Positions 1,787 to 30,303 of a DNA stretch of 64,000 nt are shown in pieces; position 1 is the first letter of the stretch; every line of letters begins with the position of its first letter. The position numbers and the translations under genes are program-made. This DNA comes from an uncultured Flavobacteriales bacterium (GTDB lineage: Bacteria > Bacteroidota > Bacteroidia > Flavobacteriales_G > Salibacteraceae). The notes beneath the pieces are model-generated. The model saw nothing but the letters and a program-made list of their open reading frames with translations. It was not told the origin of the DNA and made no database searches. The stretch spans positions 30,792 to 94,791 of the forward strand of contig CAJXZP010000006.1 of assembly GCA_913062955.1 (NCBI GenBank). The letters are read 5' to 3'.

Positions 1787-4081
1787 TTAACTTTTTCTAA
1801 GCTTCACTACTATTGATTTGGATGCCGGTGTATTACTAATTTCGGCTTTATTCTTTAAAGATACTAAAACATTTGCTTCTGGGAAATACGTTGCCGTACA
1901 CTTTTCTGGAATATCGTACGGATAAACGATAAATTTCTCGGCAACTCTCTTTACCCCATCATCTTCACAAATAATATCCACAATGTCATTGGCATTAAAC
2001 CCTTGCTTTTCAATGTCATTTTTATTCATTAGGATAACCCTACGCTCGTTATAAATCCCTCTATAGCGATCATGTAACCCATATATGGTGGTATTAAACT
2101 GGTCATGGGTTCGAATGGTCATCATGGTAAACTCCTGGTCGGAAATAGCTACTTGAGATACTTTATTTATGGTGAAATTTGCTTTCCCCGTTTTAGTAGG
2201 CGTAAAATCACCTTCGCGAGAATTATTCGGTAAATAAAAACCTCCAGGTTTACGAATGCGTTCATTAAAATTTTCAAATCCCGGAATGGTTGCTTCAATT
2301 TTATCTCTTACTAAATCATAATTCGTATTAAAACCCGCCCAATCTGTCTGTGATTTTTGTTTAAACGTAGCCTGGGCTATTTTGGAAACAATAGCTAATT
2401 CACTTAACAAATGCTTGGACAGGGGATCTAATTTCCCTTTAGAAGAATGCACCACTCCCATGGAGTCTTCTACACTCACAATCTGAGGCTTACCATTTTG
2501 AACATCTTTTTCAGACCGAGTGATACAGGGTAAAATCAAGGCTATTTTTCCATGAACAATATGGCTTCTATTTAGTTTAGTAGAAACGTGAACCGTTAAA
2601 TTACATTTTCGTAAAGCTTCCGCAGTAAATTCAGTATCCGGTGTAGCCGAGATAAAATTTCCTCCCATCCCTATAAAAACCTTTGCTTTATTTTCATGCA
2701 TGGCTTCAATAGCTTCCACAACATCAAACCCGTGTACTCTTGGAGGCTCAAAATTGAACTCTTTTTTTAGGTTATCCAGAAATTGAGGCTTTGGTTTTTC
2801 CCAAATCCCCATGGTTCGATCGCCTTGCACATTACTATGTCCACGTACCGGACAGGTACCCGCTCCTTTTTTCCCAATGCTTCCTTTTAAAAGTAACAGA
2901 TTGACTACTTCCCGGATATTATGAACCCCATTTTTATGTTGCGTCAAGCCCATTGCCCAACAAATAATTATTTTTTTATTCTCAATTAATAATTGAGCAG
3001 CTTCTCTCACTTCCTTTTCTTGAAGTCCTGCTTGTTTTACTAAATCACTAAAATCATGACTTTCAAGATCGGCTATTAAGGCCTCAATCCCCGAAGTTTT
3101 TTGTTCAATAAAATCCAGGTCAAACACTTTTCCCTTATTTTTATTTTCAGCTTCTAGTAATAAAATCATCAAAGCCTTAAGTAAGGCCACATCTCCATTT
3201 ATTTTTACCTGTAAAAATAAATCCGTAAGTTTCACCCCTTTACCTAATAAATGCCCTAGCTTTTGTGGATTTTTAAAGTTCATTAAACCCGCTTCGATTA
3301 ATGGATTCACTGAAATAATCTTGCCCCCATTCTTTTTGGTATCTTCTAAAGCAGATAACATTCTAGGATGATTGGTGCCGGGATTTTGTCCCATCACGAT
3401 TACCAATTCAGCATGTTTAAAATCTTCCAGTGTTACCGAACCTTTTCCAATACCTAGTGTTTCTACCAAACCAGCACCACTCGATTCGTGGCACATATTG
3501 GAACAATCCGGAAGGTTATTCGTTCCAAACTCTCTCACAAATAACTGATACATATAAGCCGCCTCATTACTTGTTCTACCTGAAGTATAGAAAACCGCTT
3601 CATGAGGCGAATCTAAGTTATTCAATTCGCTACCAATAAGATCAAAAGCTTCTTTCCAGTCTATCGGTTTGTAATGCGTATCTCCTGGTTTCAAAACCAT
3701 AGGATGTGTTATTCTTCCCGACTTTCCAATACGGTAATCGGACCAACTTCCAATTTCGTTAACCGAATGTTTGGCAAAAAATGCGGGGTCTACCTTTTTG
3801 GTAGTGGCCTCTTCTGCAATCGCTTTAGCTCCATTTTCACAATATTCACCTAATCTCGAACGTTTACCATCTGGATCTGGCCAGGCACAACCCGAACAAT
3901 CAAAACCATCTTTTTGATTCATACTATTAAGAACCGTTAGGGCTCTGGGCAAATTCATTTCGTCCAGTACATGTTTAAGCGCAGAGGTAACTGCTTTTAA
4001 ACCTGCGGCTGTAGATTCTACTTCGCCAGACTTAAGTCCTGTAAACTCTACTGGTGGTTGTGCATTCGTTCTCTTTATCAT
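1787..4081 (-). CDS. FdhF/YdeP-family molybdopterin-dependent oxidoreductase
   Basis: FDCSGCAWPDPDGKRS...CENGAKAIAEEAT, SNMCHESSGAGL, VMGQNPGTNHPRML, GTCPVRGHSNVQGDRTMGI. Confidence 0.88.
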   Translation of the reverse strand: MIKRTNAQPPVEFTGLKSGEVESTAAGLKAVTSALKHVLDEMNLPRALTVLNSMNQKDGFDCSGCAWPDPDGKRSRLGEYCENGAKAIAEEATTKKVDPAFFAKHSVNEIGSWSDYRIGKSGRITHPMVLKPGDTHYKPIDWKEAFDLIGSELNNLDSPHEAVFYTSGRTSNEAAYMYQLFVREFGTNNLPDCSNMCHESSGAGLVETLGIGKGSVTLEDFKHAELVIVMGQNPGTNHPRMLSALEDTKKNGGKIISVNPLIEAGLMNFKNPQKLGHLLGKGVKLTDLFLQVKINGDVALLKALMILLLEAENKNKGKVFDLDFIEQKTSGIEALIADLESHDFSDLVKQAGLQEKEVREAAQLLIENKKIIICWAMGLTQHKNGVHNIREVVNLLLLKGSIGKKGAGTCPVRGHSNVQGDRTMGIWEKPKPQFLDNLKKEFNFEPPRVHGFDVVEAIEAMHENKAKVFIGMGGNFISATPDTEFTAEALRKCNLTVHVSTKLNRSHIVHGKIALILPCITRSEKDVQNGKPQIVSVEDSMGVVHSSKGKLDPLSKHLLSELAIVSKIAQATFKQKSQTDWAGFNTNYDLVRDKIEATIPGFENFNERIRKPGGFYLPNNSREGDFTPTKTGKANFTINKVSQVAISDQEFTMMTIRTHDQFNTTIYGLHDRYRGIYNERRVILMNKNDIEKQGFNANDIVDIICEDDGVKRVAEKFIVYPYDIPEKCTATYFPEANVLVSLKNKAEISNTPASKSIVVKLRKS

Positions 4082-4621
4082 TAAGATCTTTTGTATTTTA
4101 TGATAGCCATTTAATAGCAGCCAAATTTCCTAAAAAAATATCATTTATGGGTACTATTTTTTGGTATCTTGGGATACTGTATAAAAACCACATCTTTATT
4201 TCAAAAAATCTAAGGCACCTTTCGGGTCGTAAAGTACTAAAGAATAATCTATTTGATAGATTTTGAACACTTTCATTGGTAACTGGAACGCCCAATAAAG
4301 ACCGGCTTAGAGAGCTAGAAAAGGTTTTTTTGATTGGAGATACCCATGCATTTGGTACGGCTACCTTTTACGAATTCATGAAACCCGTAAACATAAGAGC
4401 TCTTTCCATTTCATGTCAATTCATTTTCTCCGAAAAATTTGAAACAACTAATCAATAAAATTAAATTCATGAATCTACATTATTGAAACTAGTAATTCCG
4501 AAAGGTTAAGTGTCTCTAAAATGATCATTAAATAGCTTATTTGGCCATTCGCTTAGTGAATAATATTCTTAATCTTGTATTTGTTAAAATACAAATTAGT
4601 TGAAATAAAGTCCAAGTCTTA

Positions 4622-5701
4622 ATGATTTCAAGAATATTAAAAGCAGCAAACAAAAAGCTTAACCCAAAGCATCTCTTTTTCGGACCTGAATGGATCATTC
4701 TTGGGGTAAATAATATCTGTAATTTACATTGTAAAATGTGTGATGTTGGTACCCAGAATCTCGAAACAAACTTTGCACAAAACCTGGTGGGATCTCACCC
4801 ACTAAACATGCCTTTAGACCTTTTTAAACAGGTTGTTGATGACACAAGTAAACATTACCCGAACGCCAAAATTGGCTATGCTTTTACCGAACCGTTGATT
4901 TATCCAGACCTTAAAGAATCCTTGATATACGCGCATCAAAAAGGACTACAAACCACCATTACCACTAATGCTTTGAGTCTTAAACGAAAAGCACAAGATT
5001 TAATTGACGGCAACCTGACGGAATTATTCGTATCTCTAGATGGGTTACAGGACACACATAATTACATTAGAGGACACAAAAGCTCTTTCCAAAAAGCCTT
5101 AGAAGGAATTGAGCATCTCCTTACCTTCCCAAATCCACCTCAAATATCTGTGTACTGTGTGATTACGGAATGGAATTACACAGAATTATTTGAGTTTGTA
5201 AAATATTTCGATAAACTCCCCTTGAAGCACATCGGTTTTATGCATCAAAACTTTATTACCGAAGAAGTCGCATCCAACCATAACCAAGACTATGGAAGTT
5301 GGCTTCATGCCACTCACTCTAACATTGAAGAAACCGATTTTTCAGCGATTGACATTGAAATTCTTCAAGATCAAATCCTTAAAATCAAAAACGGAAACTT
5401 CGAAAAACCACCTTCATTTAGCCCCGAACTAATTAATTTAAGGGAGTTAAAAACCTATTACGAAAACCCAGAGGTAAAAATTGGAAAAACCTGTAACGAT
5501 GTTTTTACCAATATTATGATAAAAACGGATGGGACTGCAATTCCTTCGCATGGAAGATGTTACAATAAAACAATGGGCGATTTAAACCATCAATCCCTAC
5601 CCGAAATATGGAATAGTAATGAATATGCGCAATTCAGATCTGAAATTGTAAAAAATGATGGGTTATTCCCGGCATGCAATCGTTGTTGTAGTGCTTTTTA
5701 A
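4622..5701 (+). CDS. Radical SAM protein with SPASM-like Cys-rich C-terminus
   Basis: CX3CX2C motif (NNICNLHCKMCDVG); C-terminal cysteines KTCNDVF...HGRCYN...PACNRCCSAF. Confidence 0.85.
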   Translation: MISRILKAANKKLNPKHLFFGPEWIILGVNNICNLHCKMCDVGTQNLETNFAQNLVGSHPLNMPLDLFKQVVDDTSKHYPNAKIGYAFTEPLIYPDLKESLIYAHQKGLQTTITTNALSLKRKAQDLIDGNLTELFVSLDGLQDTHNYIRGHKSSFQKALEGIEHLLTFPNPPQISVYCVITEWNYTELFEFVKYFDKLPLKHIGFMHQNFITEEVASNHNQDYGSWLHATHSNIEETDFSAIDIEILQDQILKIKNGNFEKPPSFSPELINLRELKTYYENPEVKIGKTCNDVFTNIMIKTDGTAIPSHGRCYNKTMGDLNHQSLPEIWNSNEYAQFRSEIVKNDGLFPACNRCCSAF

Positions 5702-5780
5702 TCGCCTTTCTCTTTTAGGTAAATACCCACAATCTGCAAAAATTCATTTAATCTTGCAGTAGCGATTAAAACGTATTATT

Positions 5781-7967
5781 TTGGAGCAGTCTACCACCAT
5801 TTTATTCCTAACACCACCGTTCACACAATTGAACACCCCCTACCCGGCTACGGCCTATTTAAAGGGTTTTTTCAATACATTGAATGTATCTACCCAACAA
5901 ATTGATTTAGGATTAGACGTCACCTTACGCATATTTTCAAAATCGGGGTACACATCCATTTTTGAAATTTTAGATACCCACGAAATTGATTTATCAGAGA
6001 ACGCCAATCGTATCTATACCTTAGCTACCAGTTATCAAAGTACCATTGATGCGGTTATTTCCTTTCTGCAAGGAAATAACCCAACATTAGCCCATAGTAT
6101 TGTTACCCGTTCCTACCTACCCGAAGCTTCTCGATTTAGCCATTTAGAAGACCTGGATTGGGCTTTTGGCGATTTGGGCATACAAGACAAGGCAAAACAC
6201 TTAGCAACGCTTTATCTGGAAGATATGGCGGATTTAATTATGGAAGCCATTGACCCTGATTTTGGCTTTAGTCGGTATGCGGAGAAAATTGCCATAGCAG
6301 CGAGTAATTTTGATGAAATTCATGAACTCGTAGAGTCGGAGCCCCATTTTATTGATGCCCTCATTATCGATGAACTGGAAAAAAGTCTGACACTTCATTC
6401 ACCCAAAATGGTGGCTATTTCCATTCCATTTCCAGGGAACCTATATGGCGCTTTAAAGGTTGGGCAACACATTAAAACACACTATCCCCACATTATAGTG
6501 GTTATGGGAGGAGGATATCCCAATACGGAGTTACGCTCATTGAGTGATACTCGAATGTTTAAATACACGGATTTCATAACCTTAGATGACGGAGAAGCGC
6601 CTTTATCCATACTACTTGAACATGTGGAAGGGAAACGAAATATAAAGTCACTAAAACGTACCTTAACCGTCATAGACAACGAAGTTCAATACCTAAACGG
6701 AGCACCAGAACCTGATTTTAATCATTGGGAAGTAGGTACTCCTGATTATACCGGACTTCAACTCAGCAGGTATATTTCAGTTATTGAAATAGCCAACCCG
6801 ATGCACCGTCTTTGGAGTGATGGCCGTTGGAACAAATTAACTCTTGCTCATGGTTGTTACTGGGGGAAATGTACTTTTTGCGATATCAGCTTAGATTATA
6901 TCAAGCGTTATCAACCGGTTACGGCTTCGTACTTATGTGATCAAATAGAGACCATTATTGCACAAACAGGCGAAACAGGGTTTCATTTTGTAGATGAAGC
7001 AGCCCCACCGGCACTTTTAAGGGATTTATCCTTAGAAATTCTCAAACGAAACATGACCATTACCTGGTGGACCAATATTCGTTTTGAAAAAAGTTTTTCA
7101 CCTGGATTAACACAATTAATGAAGTTAGCAGGTTGTATCGCGGTGTCTGGAGGGTTAGAAGTGGCCTCCGATCGATTGTTAAAACTAATCAAAAAAGGAG
7201 TGAGCATCGAAAAGGTGGCTAAAGTCAACCATAGCTTCACGAAAGCAGGAATAATGGTTCATGCCTATTTGATGTACGGATTCCCTACGCAAACCAAACA
7301 AGAAACAGTGGATTCGCTAGAGGTTGTGCGGCAACTGTTTGAAGCCGGAATTATTCAATCGGCCTATTGGCATCGATTTTCTATGACTGCGCACAGTCCG
7401 GTTGGATTAAACCCAGAGGACTTTGATGTAGAACAAGTCAATCCAGAAATAGGAACATTTGCGAACAACGACCTTATCCACTCCGATCCAAAAGGTACCG
7501 ACCACCAATTGTTTAGCGAAGGCTTAAAAAAGTCATTATTTAACTTTATGCATGGGATTGGATTTGATTTCCCTTTACAAGATTGGTTTGCATTTAAAAC
7601 CCCGAAAACGAAACATCCAAAAAATGAAATTTCGAACTTCTTAAAAAACCAAGAATTCATAGAAACAACTTCAAAAAGCAAGGTGTTATGGACTGGATAC
7701 CAATACGTAGCTATCTCAGTTATAAATGACAAAAAGGCATCTATACGTATTCAAACAAAATCAAAAAGCTTGGAGTTCACCCTTCCAAAGGCGCAAGCCA
7801 CTTGGATTATAGAATTAGTAAATAATGCTCATTTCTCTAACGAAACTGTGCCGACCTATGGCGAAATGGAAGCCGATTTTAATGCCAAAAATCTGGGTTA
7901 TTTCCTTCTATTTTGGAACGAACCTACCCTACTATCTCTACGTGAAAACGGATTGTTAATTTTGTAG
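5781..7967 (+). CDS. B12-binding-domain-like radical SAM protein (TTG start)
   Basis: N-terminal PPFTQLNTPYPATAYLKGF and VVMGGGYPNTEL (B12-binding-like fold); rSAM cysteines HGCYWGKCTFCDISLDY. Confidence 0.82.
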   Translation: MEQSTTILFLTPPFTQLNTPYPATAYLKGFFNTLNVSTQQIDLGLDVTLRIFSKSGYTSIFEILDTHEIDLSENANRIYTLATSYQSTIDAVISFLQGNNPTLAHSIVTRSYLPEASRFSHLEDLDWAFGDLGIQDKAKHLATLYLEDMADLIMEAIDPDFGFSRYAEKIAIAASNFDEIHELVESEPHFIDALIIDELEKSLTLHSPKMVAISIPFPGNLYGALKVGQHIKTHYPHIIVVMGGGYPNTELRSLSDTRMFKYTDFITLDDGEAPLSILLEHVEGKRNIKSLKRTLTVIDNEVQYLNGAPEPDFNHWEVGTPDYTGLQLSRYISVIEIANPMHRLWSDGRWNKLTLAHGCYWGKCTFCDISLDYIKRYQPVTASYLCDQIETIIAQTGETGFHFVDEAAPPALLRDLSLEILKRNMTITWWTNIRFEKSFSPGLTQLMKLAGCIAVSGGLEVASDRLLKLIKKGVSIEKVAKVNHSFTKAGIMVHAYLMYGFPTQTKQETVDSLEVVRQLFEAGIIQSAYWHRFSMTAHSPVGLNPEDFDVEQVNPEIGTFANNDLIHSDPKGTDHQLFSEGLKKSLFNFMHGIGFDFPLQDWFAFKTPKTKHPKNEISNFLKNQEFIETTSKSKVLWTGYQYVAISVINDKKASIRIQTKSKSLEFTLPKAQATWIIELVNNAHFSNETVPTYGEMEADFNAKNLGYFLLFWNEPTLLSLRENGLLIL

Positions 7968-9708: not shown

Positions 9709-10230
9709 ATGTTACCAGAGTATTTAGAGTCATTAAAAAAGGCAGGACAAAGTAAAAAGGCCATTTTACGTCAAACCAAGCGAATGCGTAAAATGCGGAA
9801 AGGCGAAGTAGATGATTTGATTCATCCGCTTCATGAAAAAGCATTTGAAAAAGTGGATTGTTTACAATGTGCGAATTGCTGTAAAACCACAAGTCCAATT
9901 CTCACCGAAAAAGATACCAAAAGAATATCTAAACACCTCGGTATGAAAGGTGGTGATTTTGCTCAAAAGTATTTGTACTTAGATGAAGATCAGGAATATG
10001 CTCTAAAAACCGTTCCCTGTCCTTTCCTTGGAGACGATAACTTTTGTGGGATTTACGATGTACGCCCAAGAGCCTGTAGTGATTACCCACATACCGATCA
10101 AGTAAATCAAGTTGGAATTTTACAACTCACGCAAAAAAATGCGACTATATGTCCTGCTGTGGCGGATATCTTTATTGAATTAGAAAGAGTAACCGAAGAA
10201 GTATACGGTAAGGTCAAAAGAAAAAATTAG
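9709..10230 (+). CDS. YkgJ-family cysteine cluster protein
   Basis: VDCLQCANCCKTTSPIL ... CPFLGDDNFCGIYDVRPRACSDYPH. Confidence 0.9.
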   Translation: MLPEYLESLKKAGQSKKAILRQTKRMRKMRKGEVDDLIHPLHEKAFEKVDCLQCANCCKTTSPILTEKDTKRISKHLGMKGGDFAQKYLYLDEDQEYALKTVPCPFLGDDNFCGIYDVRPRACSDYPHTDQVNQVGILQLTQKNATICPAVADIFIELERVTEEVYGKVKRKN

Positions 10231-10261
10231 ACCTTCTCATCGAAAGTCACTTGAAATAGCC

Positions 10262-10297
10262 AAAAAAAAAGCCTCTCCGTGAAAGAGGCTTTTTTTT
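10262..10297. terminator. Bidirectional intrinsic terminator
   Basis: A-tract, AGCCTCT...AGAGGCT stem, T-tract. Confidence 0.85.
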
Positions 10298-10545
10298 GGG
10301 TATAAAAATCATTTTTTGTTGTTGAATAAGTAATCACCGTGCTTACCCTACAAGAATGATTATTTTGCCTTTGAACGACTTTCCCTAAAGAAATGAGGAT
10401 ATTACGTATATTTCTAAACCTCACTTATTGTATGGCCGTAAAACACGCTAAAGTCCCTAGAATCCAGAAGACGTAACAGTCCCTTCCCTTCCAAAAGAAA
10501 AAGTGTTCATTCCCATTTTCAGGGAATCCAAAAAGAAGGAATAGT

Positions 10546-12051
10546 TTAGTATCTAGCTCTAATACTGGACTCTAGTTTTCTATTGTAATCATCTGTTAAC
10601 CATTTTAGGTAATTAATGGTACTATTACAAATGCAATAAGAATACTTTTTGATTCGAGCGTTGGTATCATCTTTCAAATAGCGAATAAGAAACAGCGCAT
10701 CAAATAAATCATCTGCGTTTTCAACACATAATTGTGTTTGCTGCTCTACCGAACGTTCTAATGCTACTTTAGGACGTAAACATTCGTGAATTACTTGCTT
10801 GTATTCCTTTTCAATATCAAAATCAATATTTTTAGATTTACTAAAATGCTTTCGAACACTCTCTGGCATTTCGTACATGAAACTTCTTTGAATATCATCA
10901 TCATTCAAAATATTGTTCAAATACTGTAAGGGAGATCTGAAAATTCGTTGCCAATCCAAAGGCGCCCCCCATAAACCAAAACGAGCTACATTATTCCCTA
11001 AATCAATCACTTGAAACTCCTGTACACCAGGAAGAATACGAGACCCCCTACCAATCATTTGATAATATAGGGTTAATGATTTAGTCGCTCTATTTAAAAT
11101 AATGGTTTCTACGGTTGGTTCATCAAATCCCGTAGTTAAAATCCCTACAGAGCTTAATACGGCATTGGGCGTGACCTTAAACCAATGAATAATATCCTTA
11201 CGTTCTTGTCCATTATGCGTATTATCCAAATGTCGAACGTCATAGCCCGCATGTCTGAAGGTCTCTAATACGTGCTTGGAAGTTTGGATTCCATTATTGA
11301 AAATCAAGGTTTTTTTACCTAAAGATTTCTCTTCATAAATGTTCAATAACTTCTCTTGCATAATAAAGTTACCATACAGTCTTTCGGAGGAAGCCACGGT
11401 ATAATCCCCATTTGCTCCAATTTTCAGAGAACTCAAATTCACTTGCAATGTAGTAGTAACAGCATTAGCCAAGTATTTCGCCTTAATCAAACCCGAAATA
11501 GACTCTCCCACAAACAATTCATCATAATTGTCCTTCATAGGAAGTTTCATATTGGAACTCAACGGGGTAGCTGTTACTCCAAGAATAGACGCATGTTCAA
11601 AATACTTAAACAGCTTTCTAAAGGAGTTATAATGGGCCTCATCAATAATCACCAATCCAATGTTATCTACATTGGTTTCGTTATCTCTTAATCGATTATT
11701 TAACGTTTCCACCATAGCCACAAACGACACATACTCCTCTTCAAAAGGAATATGCTTCACCTTGCTATCAATAATCATATTGGAGACGTCAAAATCGTCT
11801 AACATTCTGGATGTCTGTGCACACAGCTCAATACGGTGAGTTAGAATAAGAACCTTCTTTTTCTTTTCCTCAATAAAACGTTTTGCAATTTCCGAGAAAA
11901 TCACCGTTTTCCCACCTCCTGTTGGTAATTGATAGAGTAAATTAAACCCATCCTCCTCATCATTCAGTTTACCAATGATATGATCAATGGCACCCTGTTG
12001 ATATGGATATAATCGTTTTATTGCTTTTTCCTCTAAAACCGTTACCGACAT
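10546..12051 (-). CDS. DEAD/DEAH-box (SF2) helicase, Type III res/RadD-like
   Basis: YQLPTGGGKTVIFSEI (Walker A), IIDEAHYNS, ILTTGFDEPTVETIILNRATKSLTLYYQMIGRGSR. Confidence 0.88.
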   Translation of the reverse strand: MSVTVLEEKAIKRLYPYQQGAIDHIIGKLNDEEDGFNLLYQLPTGGGKTVIFSEIAKRFIEEKKKKVLILTHRIELCAQTSRMLDDFDVSNMIIDSKVKHIPFEEEYVSFVAMVETLNNRLRDNETNVDNIGLVIIDEAHYNSFRKLFKYFEHASILGVTATPLSSNMKLPMKDNYDELFVGESISGLIKAKYLANAVTTTLQVNLSSLKIGANGDYTVASSERLYGNFIMQEKLLNIYEEKSLGKKTLIFNNGIQTSKHVLETFRHAGYDVRHLDNTHNGQERKDIIHWFKVTPNAVLSSVGILTTGFDEPTVETIILNRATKSLTLYYQMIGRGSRILPGVQEFQVIDLGNNVARFGLWGAPLDWQRIFRSPLQYLNNILNDDDIQRSFMYEMPESVRKHFSKSKNIDFDIEKEYKQVIHECLRPKVALERSVEQQTQLCVENADDLFDALFLIRYLKDDTNARIKKYSYCICNSTINYLKWLTDDYNRKLESSIRARY

Positions 12052-18758: not shown

Positions 18759-19322
18759 ATGCTTTCAAAGATGAATCCCAAGATTTCAATTATCTTTATT
18801 ACTGTGTTTGCCGTGGCTATGTCACGCTTAATTCCTCATTGGCCAAATGTAACCGCGGTTGCTGCCATTGCTATTTTTGGAGGAGCTACCTTAAGGAATT
18901 CTTTCGCGGCCGTTTTGGTTCCTATTTCTGCCATCTTTCTTAGTGATCTAATTATTAACAATACTTTTTACAGCGCGTATTACGAAGGCTTTGTTTTATT
19001 TGGTGATTCTGCCGGTTGGATTTATGGAGCGTTTATCTTAATGACCGTTTTGGCTCATTTTAGTATTAAATCTTTTAAAGTAGCCGCTATCATTTCAACG
19101 ACTGTTTTAAGTACGTTGTTATTTTTCTTTTTGACAAATACAGGGGCTTGGTTAAGTTCTCCATTTTATGTAAAAGATGCAAGTGGCCTATTATTGGCTT
19201 ATGAAGCGGGTTTACCGTTTTTATTAAATAGTCTTTTAGGTAACTTATTCTTTGTAGGTGTATTCTTTTATGGATACTCTTTCGTGACTGAAAAAAAGGC
19301 ACAATGGCTTTTAGCTAAATAA
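18759..19322 (+). CDS. Integral membrane protein, DUF6580-like
   Basis: Multiple TM segments; MSRLIPHWPNVTAVAAIAIFGGATLRN...PFLLNSLLGNLFFVGVFFYGYSF. Confidence 0.7.
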   Translation: MLSKMNPKISIIFITVFAVAMSRLIPHWPNVTAVAAIAIFGGATLRNSFAAVLVPISAIFLSDLIINNTFYSAYYEGFVLFGDSAGWIYGAFILMTVLAHFSIKSFKVAAIISTTVLSTLLFFFLTNTGAWLSSPFYVKDASGLLLAYEAGLPFLLNSLLGNLFFVGVFFYGYSFVTEKKAQWLLAK

Positions 19323-19484: not shown

Positions 19485-19797
19485 GGGAATGCAAAATGTA
19501 GCTTGACCTTTTTCTTCCAATGAATTGGATTAGAATTGCTTTATGACACGCATTTTCCCAATTACATATCATAGCATTAAAAAGCCACTAACTCTTATTA
19601 ATGGCTCTAATTTCTTACTTATTCTTTATAAAACAGTTGCCATAAAGATTTTCTAATTCTGTTTTACAAACAGAATAGAAAACTATAATACTTCGACAGG
19701 CTCAGCACAAGTATGACAACTTGCTTCTTGTTTTTTCATAGCAAAATCAGAGGTCACTGAGCGGTAGCCGAAGTGTCATTTGGCAAGCTGCTGGGAC
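19485..19797 (-). repeat. Rhs-associated repeat copy A (full length)
   Basis: Shares gggaatgcaaaatgtagcttg, ttttcccaattacatatcatagcattaaaaagccactaactct, acagttgccataaagattttctaat and cttcgacaggctcagcacaagtatga with copies B and/or C. Confidence 0.92.
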
Positions 19798-19836
19798 TTA
19801 TTTTTTATTTATCATTTGGCAATGTGCCTGGGGTAT

Positions 19837-20340
19837 TTACAAACTAACTTTAGTCAGTTTAATAAGTTTTGATTTTTCTATATTTAATAAGTAATAGTTG
19901 TGAAAATTATAATTGAAATCTGATTGATTAAAGACAATTTTTGAATAAATCCCTGAAATGTAAAATCCTTCCTTTTTCTCTTTTAGTTCTAATAAAAATG
20001 TTTTAATCCATTTTTTTCTTTCAGTATCGTTTTTTGATATGCTAAAAGATGAATTTAATTCATAAATTAGACTCTTAAAAATATCTGAATCAACATTCAT
20101 TAATTCCCATTTATAAGATTGCCTATCTACTTCCAGTTTAATCTTGAAGTTAGGTAATTCAACTAAATCATCTAAAGAGGGTGTTTTATTTTCAATAATG
20201 AAAATTTCAGTTTTATAAACACCACAATAAAAACTATTAACTTTATTAAGTTCAAAATCATTTGGCAAAATGCTCTCATTTTTACAACCCAAAAAAAAGA
20301 TTATCAAATTAAGTAAAATCAAGACTTTATTTTTTTTCAT
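19837..20340 (-). CDS. Small lipoprotein, candidate orphan immunity protein
   Basis: Lipobox-like N-terminus MKKNKVLILLNLIIFFLGCKNE; located in the Rhs-CT cassette array between repeats A and B. Confidence 0.5.
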   Translation of the reverse strand: MKKNKVLILLNLIIFFLGCKNESILPNDFELNKVNSFYCGVYKTEIFIIENKTPSLDDLVELPNFKIKLEVDRQSYKWELMNVDSDIFKSLIYELNSSFSISKNDTERKKWIKTFLLELKEKKEGFYISGIYSKIVFNQSDFNYNFHNYYLLNIEKSKLIKLTKVSL

Positions 20341-20362
20341 TTGAATTTATTTTTAATGTATA

Positions 20363-20630
20363 GGGAATGCAAAATGTAGCTTGTCTATTTTTCCCTGTGA
20401 ATTGGACTAGAATTGCTTTATGACAAGCATTTTCCCAATTACATATCATAGCATTAAAAAGCCACTAACTCTCAATTAGTCGCTCAATTTTTTTTCTAAT
20501 ACAGTTGCCATAAAGATTTTCTAATCCTGTTTTGCAAACAGGATTGAAAAACTATAATACTTCGACAGGCTCAGCACAAGTATGACCAACTTGCATCTTA
20601 CTTATATTCAGACGGCAAGTTGCGGGACTG
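20363..20630 (-). repeat. Rhs-associated repeat copy B
   Basis: Near-identical to copy A over most of its length. Confidence 0.92.
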
Positions 20631-20643
20631 CTGAATTCCCAGT

Positions 20644-21072
20644 TTAATATTCTAAATATTCAATTGATAATTCGGCATTAGTACCTAGTTCATATATTTT
20701 TATTGACTCATGGATTTCTTGTTCCATAATTTGGGGGTTGCTTCCTATATTGTTTAGAAATAAATATACTCCTTTTTGGTCATCGATGGAAAAAATTGAT
20801 TTATTTACTTTCTTGCTTTTGAATTTTTCGAATATATATTCAAATTCATCATTCTTTTTTCCACTAAAAGCATAAACAATAGCCATGTCATTTTTCTTGA
20901 AAAAGAAACCATGCTTTTCAAAATGTCTAGCTGGCATAACTTGAAATAACATTTGATCATCAATGGATAAGTTGATATGTAGGTTTTTAGCTCCTTTATC
21001 AAAGCATCTGTTAATAGCTTCTGATATTGGTAGTTTATGAAGTGGTTTATTTCTTTTAAATAGGTTAAACAT
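20644..21072 (-). CDS. Hypothetical cytosolic protein, candidate orphan immunity protein
   Basis: 142 aa ORF flanked by repeats B and C, same strand as the Rhs tip. Confidence 0.5.
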   Translation of the reverse strand: MFNLFKRNKPLHKLPISEAINRCFDKGAKNLHINLSIDDQMLFQVMPARHFEKHGFFFKKNDMAIVYAFSGKKNDEFEYIFEKFKSKKVNKSIFSIDDQKGVYLFLNNIGSNPQIMEQEIHESIKIYELGTNAELSIEYLEY

Positions 21073-21116
21073 ATTAATTTTTTAATTCCAATTAAATATA
21101 TGTAATGTATTCTAAC

Positions 21117-21245
21117 ACAGTTGCCATAAAGATTTTCTAATCCTGTTTTGCAAACAGAATTGAAAAACTATAATACTTCGACAGGCTCAGCACAAGCATG
21201 ACAACTTGCATCTTGTTTTTAATCATTTGGCAAGCTGCTTGGGGG
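21117..21245 (-). repeat. Rhs-associated repeat copy C (truncated, lacks the terminator half)
   Basis: acagttgccataaagattttctaatcctgttttgcaaacagaattgaaaaactataatacttcgacaggctcagcacaagcatgacaacttgcatcttg. Confidence 0.9.
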
Positions 21246-21572
21246 AGGTTGAATTTCTAATTCAGAAAAATAACATTCAACTATATATTCATCATAATAA
21301 TTATTCCGAATAATACTTTGATTCTCACAGTTTTCATACAAATAACCAATCATTTTATGATTATTATTTTCCACATTCAAAATTTTCCTCTTAAAATGGT
21401 AGTATAGAAAAGGAGTATAACTTTCTCTTTTTTCACCATTTAGTATTGAATATTTTTGTTTCTGTTTTGCAATATACTTTTCAAGAGTAACTTGATAAAA
21501 AACACTGAAGACCAATACAATAGCAAGTATCCCTATAAAAACAAAAACTGCAATTTTTAAAATTTTCTTCAT
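21219..21572 (-). CDS. Single-TM small protein, candidate cognate immunity protein of the Rhs tip
   Basis: MKKILKIAVFVFIGILAIVLVFSVFYQV TM segment; starts 10 bp after the Rhs-CT stop codon; last residues (PSSLPND) are encoded inside repeat C. Confidence 0.55.
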   Translation of the reverse strand: MKKILKIAVFVFIGILAIVLVFSVFYQVTLEKYIAKQKQKYSILNGEKRESYTPFLYYHFKRKILNVENNNHKMIGYLYENCENQSIIRNNYYDEYIVECYFSELEIQPPPSSLPND

Positions 21573-21581
21573 TTTGTAATA

Positions 21582-22358
21582 CTATTCTATAATTGTCTCA
21601 GTTACTGGATGAAAATAATCGACTCCCTCATAGCCGGCATCTTCTATTGCCTTATCCTCCAAAATTTCTGGTAAAGAATAGGGAATTAACTTATCCACCT
21701 CATTTATGGCATCCTCTTCATTATATCCCGCACCCATATACGCATCGATTAGCAAGTTTTTAACTTGAGCTGTACACCAAGCTCCTCTGGCATTGTTATT
21801 CTTTTGATATCCATGGATTAAATCAAACGCAACACTCTCTACTTCTTTAGGCAAAGAAATTTTCAACCTCTGAACCAGGTCTCCACCTTCTTGATAAATT
21901 TTTACTGTAGCAGCTTCATCAATATATCTATATTCTATTGCACGACCAGAACCATCTGGAACATCAACATATACTGTTCTCCAATCAGCATTATTACCAC
22001 TAGCAGGTAAATACAAGATTCCATTCGCCCCCGTTAATCCATATTCGTAAGTAGTTGAAATACCAATAGCAGTATGTCCTAAAAAGCCATAAGCAGAAAA
22101 ATCTGCCGACATATTATAAATAAAGATGGTATCTCCCAAAGGATCACTATACCAAATCGGATTATTAGCAAAAGTCGCATACTGACTAATAGAAGGATTC
22201 GGCTTAGGATCTAAATTCCATCTTCTTCCTAACCTCGGGTCATATTGCCAAAACATTGCTGTGTAAGAGTTTCCTGCTCCAGCTATTTCATCGTCTTTCT
22301 CCTGTCCGTTAAACCCATAACGGTAAGCATCGGTTAATATAGAAGTAAGGGGATTCAT
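21582..22358 (-). CDS. Orphan Rhs repeat-associated core plus C-terminal variable (toxin-like) domain
   Basis: YRYGFNGQEKDDEIAGAGNSYTAMFWQYDPRLGRRWNLDPKPNPSISQYATFANNPIWYSDPLGD (RHS core), then a unique ~185 aa C-terminus; no YD-repeat shell upstream. Confidence 0.85.
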   Translation of the reverse strand: MNPLTSILTDAYRYGFNGQEKDDEIAGAGNSYTAMFWQYDPRLGRRWNLDPKPNPSISQYATFANNPIWYSDPLGDTIFIYNMSADFSAYGFLGHTAIGISTTYEYGLTGANGILYLPASGNNADWRTVYVDVPDGSGRAIEYRYIDEAATVKIYQEGGDLVQRLKISLPKEVESVAFDLIHGYQKNNNARGAWCTAQVKNLLIDAYMGAGYNEEDAINEVDKLIPYSLPEILEDKAIEDAGYEGVDYFHPVTETIIE

Positions 22359-29227: not shown

Positions 29228-30248
29228 ATCACTAATTAGACCGATATTATTCTCCTTCCCTCCCGAAAAGGCGCATCAATTAGTGATGGGCATTTTAAAA
29301 GCCAAATTGGCGGTACCTGGAGTAAGAAGTCTATTCAAATCGATGTTCACCCTGGAGGACAAAAGATTGGAACGGGAAGTTTTTGGCATCAAATTCCCAA
29401 ACCCCGTTGGGTTAGCAGCAGGTTTTGATAAGAATGCCGATTACTACAAGCAAATGTCAGTACTTGGTTTTGGTTTTGTAGAAATTGGAACGGTTACCCC
29501 AGTGGGTCAACCAGGTAATCCAGCGCCAAGAATGTTTCGTTTACCGGCCGATGAAGGTTTGATTAATCGAATGGGATTCAATAATGGAGGTGTTGAGGTA
29601 GCCATTGAAAATTTAAAATCGCGTCCAAAGGATCTTATTATTGGTGGGAATATTGGCAAAAACAAGGTAACACCCAATAACGAAGCCATCAACGATTACA
29701 TAACAGCATTTGATGCCCTTTTTGATTACGTGGATTATTTTGTAGTTAATGTGAGCTCTCCAAATACACCTGGATTAAGGGCGTTACAGGATAAAGGACC
29801 TTTAACTGAAATCTTAAACGAACTTCAAACTCGGAATCAAAAGAAAAGCCATCCTAAACCCATATTGTTAAAGATAGCTCCGGATTTAACAGATTCGCAA
29901 TTAGATGATATCGTTGATATTATTACCGATACCAAAACAGATGGTGTTATTGCAACAAATACGACTATTAGTCGTGAAGGATTAAAAACCGACCAATCGG
30001 TAACGGAAGAAATGGGTGGTTTAAGTGGTAAACCTGTAAAATCAAGATCTACTGCGGTTATAAAATACTTACATACTAAATCAAAGGGATCCTTCCCGAT
30101 TATTGGTGTTGGAGGAATTCAAACGGCTGAAGATGCGATTGAAAAACTAGATGCAGGTGCTTCATTGATTCAGGTTTATACTGGATTTATTTATGAAGGC
30201 CCGGCTATGGTAAAAAATATTTGTAAAGGAATTTTAGCTAAGGGTTAA
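29220..30248 (+). CDS. pyrD: Quinone-dependent dihydroorotate dehydrogenase
   Basis: [63 protein letters not shown]; 8-nt overlap with ribB. Confidence 0.97.
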
Positions 30249-30263
30249 GAAACTAAAAAACAC

Positions 30264-30303
30264 AAAAAAAGCCCTTCATGTAAATTACATGAAGGGCTTT
30301 TTT
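30264..30303. terminator. Bidirectional intrinsic terminator
   Basis: AAAAAAAGCCCTTCATGT-AAATT-ACATGAAGGGCTTTTTT. Confidence 0.92.

Follow-up and report, generated by a model that had tools for sequence, protein, structure and literature searches.

We propose, with a probability of about 0.6, that the locus at positions 19,485 to 22,358 of the window is the remnant of an Rhs polymorphic-toxin cassette array in which each cassette ends in a REP associated with a REP-associated tyrosine transposase (RAYT), and that these REPs, together with the Rhs core, are the points at which cassettes are exchanged. The repeat family itself is tied to Rhs cassettes. The window, the whole 64,000-nucleotide stretch that we analysed, comes from contig C6 (94.8 kb), which belongs to a draft genome of 3.9 Mb in 131 contigs (G000).

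The array lies entirely on the minus strand, with a YeeE/YedE-mfd block on one side and, on the other, a gene for a small membrane protein (18759-19322). It is headed by an orphan Rhs tip gene of 258 aa (21582-22358), whose residues 12-75 (22134-22325) match the RHS-associated core profile TIGR03696 (Rhs_assc_core) at 33.0 bits against a cut-off of 32.5, and whose residues 76-258 are unique and form the presumed toxin domain. The N-terminal delivery part is missing, the open reading frame beginning just before the core. Nine nucleotides behind the tip is g3 (21219-21572; 117 aa), which has an N-terminal hydrophobic segment, followed by repeat copy C (21114-21236; 109.7 bits with our covariance model R1). 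Then come g2 (20644-21072; 142 aa), which reads as a cytosolic protein with no export signal, and copy B (20498-20621; 104.8 bits), and finally g1 (19837-20340; 167 aa), a lipoprotein with the lipobox LIIFFLGC, and copy A (19630-19747; 77.5 bits). Copy B continues into a downstream part with a terminator-like stem (20363-20497), which it has in common with the downstream part of copy A (19485-19629; direct repeats D2 and D7). The original prediction, made from the letters alone, had described just this arrangement: an RHS core with a unique C-terminus, three same-strand small genes (single-TM, cytosolic and lipoprotein) and a copy of an imperfect repeat behind each; profile searches, open reading frames and sequence reading bear out all of it.

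It is established that immunity proteins are encoded immediately behind Rhs toxin domains. The tip and g3 are therefore a putative displaced toxin-immunity pair, the immunity role of g3 following from its position. Neither g1 nor g2 has its own tip, and we regard both as putative orphan immunity genes from cassettes whose tips were lost. The draft genome contains only two Rhs cores, both in tip-only genes, and the assembly yielded no Rhs gene of full length.

Searches of Pfam, NCBIfam and PADLOC placed none of the four window proteins in an immunity or toxin family, so that the comparison of the small proteins with immunity families proposed with the prediction came back empty; apart from the Rhs core there were only sub-cut-off matches, such as that of g2 to DUF3801. 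It is accordingly possible, though unlikely, that g1 and g2 are unrelated genes that lie by chance between REPs, and that only the tip and g3 are linked to Rhs. This explanation would account for the lack of family matches and for the fact that the single clear relative of g2 (34% identity, in G015) is not adjacent to an Rhs gene. It fits less well with the size, co-orientation, lipobox and patchy distribution of these genes, which resemble the small genes behind Rhs tips in G001, G018, G092 and G094, or with G094, where lipoprotein genes separated by repeats likewise stand between an Rhs cassette and a RAYT. The C-terminus of the tip (183 residues) gave one 18-bit match among 395 genomes of the class and is otherwise without relatives; a related-locus search of genome contigs also found none. 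Its His-then-Cys order (GHTAIGI ... ARGAWCTAQV) prompted the idea of a permuted papain-like enzyme of the NlpC/P60 or LRAT type, which we did not keep. A single-sequence AlphaFold model of the domain has a pLDDT of 41 and a pTM of 0.32, and for that reason we make no enzymatic claim.

The repeat is a hairpin element of 100-125 nt. Copies B and C are 97% identical over 93 nt, copy A differs chiefly by a 1-nt slip in the hairpin, and the identity of copies A and B extends for a further ~110 nt downstream. The aligned copies have a core hairpin, TTTTTCAATTCTGTTTGCAAAACAGGATTAGAAAA, an outer pair TTGCCA...TGGCAA and a sharp right end, TTTATGGCAACTG; the predicted stem has 15-18 pairs, with 95% of cells paired. 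Covariation in the hairpin was sought and was not significant, and the repeat has no match in Rfam. The canonical REP foot GT[AG]G is not present, GTAG and GTGG both being absent from the foot of the hairpin in the aligned copies. Many copies are followed by a terminator-like stem.

We used R1, built from eight copies that included B and C, and not A, to search the draft genome. It found 11 places, far beyond chance: the window and contig C52 have three each, C90 has two, and C91, C29 and, weakly, C3 have one each. About half of these REPs do not adjoin an Rhs tip, the non-Rhs places being those on C90, C91, C29 and, weakly, C3. The two C90 REPs (45-142 and 1790-1892), which lie away from any Rhs gene, have ~50 nt in common past their right ends (CGTCAAGTTTAACTTTAT...), implying that the duplication took in more than the REP. 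On C52, an orphan lipoprotein gene (10164-10610) stands between two inverted REP-like matches and a direct REP (9957-10898), with no adjacent Rhs tip.

The identity of the repeat is suggested by C52, which carries the second Rhs cassette of this genome. Its order is orphan Rhs tip (3812-4795), immunity-like gene, repeat, an ORF at 5572-6132, repeat. The ORF encodes a RAYT (NF047646, 97.5 bits, cut-off 80; it also matches Y1_Tnp), and the repeat copies that flank it are at 5278 and 6144. A second copy of the RAYT 3' end and its repeat opens contig C91, where 165 of 169 nt are identical to C52; the identity ends exactly at GGCAACTG, the point at which other copies also diverge. Moreover, R1 matches occur immediately upstream of homologous RAYTs in two other genera (G005, 69% identical; G018, 60%). 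Because copies flank the C52 RAYT and precede the RAYTs of G005 and G018, the repeat is best read, from sequence, as the REP that belongs to this clade of RAYTs. In its YIHNNP motif the RAYT agrees with TnpA_REP subclass 2.6 of Bacteroidetes, as does the repeat in its non-canonical foot; the published REPs of that subclass are likewise atypical, and the RAYT's NHFH is one residue off the published NH[LIV]H (PMC6006769).

The same cassette resembles the window array in another respect. The 3' end of g3 lies inside copy C, which supplies the protein's tail, PPPSSLPND, and the stop codon, and the tail of the C52 immunity-like protein, PPPSTLPND, is likewise encoded by a repeat copy; the two proteins have only this tail in common. 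A 214-aa gene in G002, another member of the genus (contig C7, 4960-5604), ends in CPPPQHLAK, again with a REP over its 3' end as in g3, and no adjacent Rhs tip was seen. Also encoded near REPs, on C52 (6448-9894) and on G002 C7 (881-4480), are large, repetitive surface proteins whose N-termini closely resemble each other (TTHVVDSLNNAG / TVHVVDSLNDAG).

A comparison with congeners gave further evidence on both the site and the repeat. G001, a congener whose genome is complete in one contig, carries two Rhs genes of full length, with open frames of 3,180 and 3,213 aa, and has displaced tips and small genes downstream of them; a TANFOR-type N-terminus (PMC7073777) was not detected in them with Pfam or NCBIfam. 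A further model, R2, trained mainly on G001 copies, gave 15 matches in this genome, one of which is an antisense overlap of another, leaving 14 distinct sites: seven in one array, six in the other, and one that follows a solitary orphan Rhs tip (TIGR03696, 34.5 bits) with its small gene. All 14 strong sites are thus behind Rhs cassettes, and there were none elsewhere among the best 150 first-look candidates that were scored. Because most of the training copies came from the G001 arrays, recovery of the array copies is expected; the informative part of the result is the absence of other strong sites. The prediction had named a genome-wide repeat with no association with Rhs cassettes as the finding that would count against it, and G001 shows the opposite. 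Two weak matches are taken as chance: an R1 site outside the Rhs cassettes of G001 (3999432, 36 bits) and an R2 match in the window (30205-30300, 27 bits). No above-cut-off RAYT was found in G001, though the repeat has been kept.

The mfd-YeeE neighbourhood of G001 contains no array. In G002, the syntenic interval has RecQ and membrane-protein genes on one side and YeeE on the other, as in G000. Here an Rhs-core remnant of 56 codons leads into an inverted REP (27.7 bits), followed in turn by a lipoprotein gene of 132 aa, unrelated by BLAST to g1, g2 or g3, and by one REP with a different hairpin sequence. From these two congeners we conclude that the content of the site varies between members of the genus and is bounded by the same repeat family.

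To see how widely RAYTs and Rhs genes are associated, we surveyed 100 relatives, reading up to 9 kb on each side of 53 above-cut-off RAYT loci, with 27 sub-cut-off Y1 loci as the control and an Rhs-core HMM built from 65 sequences. An Rhs core lay no more than 4.5 kb upstream and on the same strand in 7 of 53 cases (G000, G018, G045, G071, G087, G092 and G094), at distances of 0.9-3.9 kb; G003 had one weak core 8.5 kb from its RAYT. None of the 27 control loci had an Rhs core, although 7/53 against 0/27 is by itself only a weak contrast. From the Rhs counts per genome, 0.13 would be expected for a same-strand window of 4.5 kb upstream (P ~4e-11 under independence) and 0.52 for either side and strand (P ~5e-7 under independence), values that ignore the clustering of variable genes and use a window size set after the matches were known. 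The seven include G000, the source of the hypothesis, and number six without it.

Two of these loci carry repeats of their own. In G092, repeats of quite different sequence follow each of two Rhs tip-immunity pairs and also flank the RAYT, at its 5' end and downstream; the cores of the two tips match over 528 nt at 98% identity. In G094, repeats unrelated to the window REP are found between an Rhs pair and two lipoprotein genes, and recur downstream of the RAYT. A further 97-nt repeat of different sequence, with an inverted CAAACATGTT/AACATGTTTG core, occurs once or twice per Rhs cassette in G014 (C4 11182-11278, 13999-14184 and 16901-16997), a genome in which no RAYT scores above the cut-off. 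C52 (228-6132) and G071 C280 (10748-19536), which come from different families, have their genes in the same order, namely tyrosine recombinase, RadC, DUF1016-type nuclease, orphan Rhs tip and RAYT, with 44-74% protein identity between the blocks.

Orphan tips recombine with full-length genes through the common core (PMC3967940). The cassette unit has the form Rhs core, unique C-terminus (CT), small putative immunity gene and REP, the last often with a terminator-like stem. As the REP is a second common sequence, on the 3' side, cassettes could be exchanged or deleted by recombination at core and REPs; the core on the 5' side and the REP on the 3' side would then be the points of cassette gain, swap and deletion. 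The fusion of Rhs core and REP in G002 is the expected remnant of a core-to-REP deletion. Homologous recombination is probably a likelier engine than the RAYT, whose part would be to seed and spread the REPs. Of the cassette array with a recombination-site repeat that was originally predicted, the displaced tip with putative immunity cassettes stands; the repeat appears to be a RAYT-associated REP, not a dedicated site.

A simpler explanation is that the REPs are passengers, placed by the RAYT in intergenic 3' regions and copied by tandem duplication and core recombination, and acting at most as terminators or insulators. We consider this possible but rather doubtful. The REPs at non-Rhs 3' regions (C29, C90 and C3) and the terminator-like stem after many copies are what it would lead us to expect, and Rhs core repeats can drive recombination alone (PMC3967940), G092 having a long, nearly identical pair of cores. 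Three observations argue against it: the Rhs core in G002 passes straight into an inverted REP, unrelated repeats hold the same position in G092 and G094, and g1 and g2 are separated by REPs despite having no core. A more active role for the enzyme, in which RAYTs have been co-opted and the HuH enzyme acts on the cassette-end REPs, moving the core-CT-immunity-REP units as single-strand IS200-like cassettes, is speculative and seems to us quite unlikely; if true, it would provide a host-relevant function for RAYTs and a dedicated shuffling enzyme for Rhs arrays.

We also considered whether a site-specific tyrosine recombinase moves the cassettes by acting on the repeat, a mechanism of the type proposed for rAID clusters and known for integrons, and find this highly improbable. 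In G071 a tyrosine recombinase does precede the Rhs tip and the RAYT, and C52 has a remnant of one; the repeat, too, stands behind each gene and is able to fold. However, the C52 copy consists of only the C-terminal 116 residues, none is recognisable beside the window array from reading its ORFs, and in G005 and G018 the repeat accompanies the RAYT with no recombinase seen adjacent. An integron cassette array was rejected as well: the two ends of the repeat read TTGCCA...TGGCAA, which, judged by eye, are not attC core sites, and no integrase is recognisable nearby.

Several known systems resemble the locus in part. The rAID clusters of Bacteroidales (PMC12247911) have co-oriented short genes with conserved intergenic motifs, taken as orphan immunity genes. 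They are headed by a tyrosine recombinase, whereas the window has an Rhs tip and, in its ORFs, which were read and not searched with profiles, no recognisable recombinase beside the array; we therefore do not count it as an rAID cluster, although the gene arrangement agrees. Orphan rhs-CT/rhsI modules (PMC3150448; PMC3967940), known from Rhs and CDI loci, are displaced tips that keep part of the RHS core, each with a small gene behind it; they lie downstream of the full-length gene or apart from it, with exchange through the common core, and the sections of these papers that we draw on describe neither a REP at the cassette end nor a RAYT. The window array differs in that two of its small genes are tip-less and a full-length Rhs gene is missing from the assembly. 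Polyimmunity loci (PMC3482391) likewise contain tandem immunity-like genes of different kinds that vary between relatives, but are described as close-packed and never interrupted by a toxin, whereas in the window REPs put ~100-340 nt between the genes and a toxin tip is present. In the sequential effector displacement of Vibrio T6SS clusters (PMC5361080), old immunity genes are similarly kept after effector loss, with no specific integration sites, in contrast to the common repeat at every boundary here. Finally, REPtrons (PMC6006769, PMC8266576, PMC3116915) match in having a RAYT above the NF047646 cut-off, flanked by palindromic repeats with copies elsewhere, and the G000 system resembles subclass 2.6 of Bacteroidetes with its atypical structures; the REPs of G000 differ in their low copy number, in their concentration at toxin-immunity cassettes and in not being canonical GTAG/GTGG-tagged REPs.

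Arrays of orphan Rhs and immunity cassettes are thus already known, and the bounding of Rhs cassettes by REP and RAYT is the part that appears new: our literature search, of open-licence PMC articles, found no report of such a link.

The capture and shuffling of orphan tips and immunity genes are usually ascribed to unspecified recombination, and RAYTs are termed domesticated transposases whose job and mechanism of dissemination are unclear. A recurrent link between Rhs and RAYT, with REPs as 3' cassette borders in several bacterial families, makes it possible to test both questions at a single locus. Where a small gene near Rhs is followed by a REP, annotators also have a mark for cryptic immunity genes that lack homologues.
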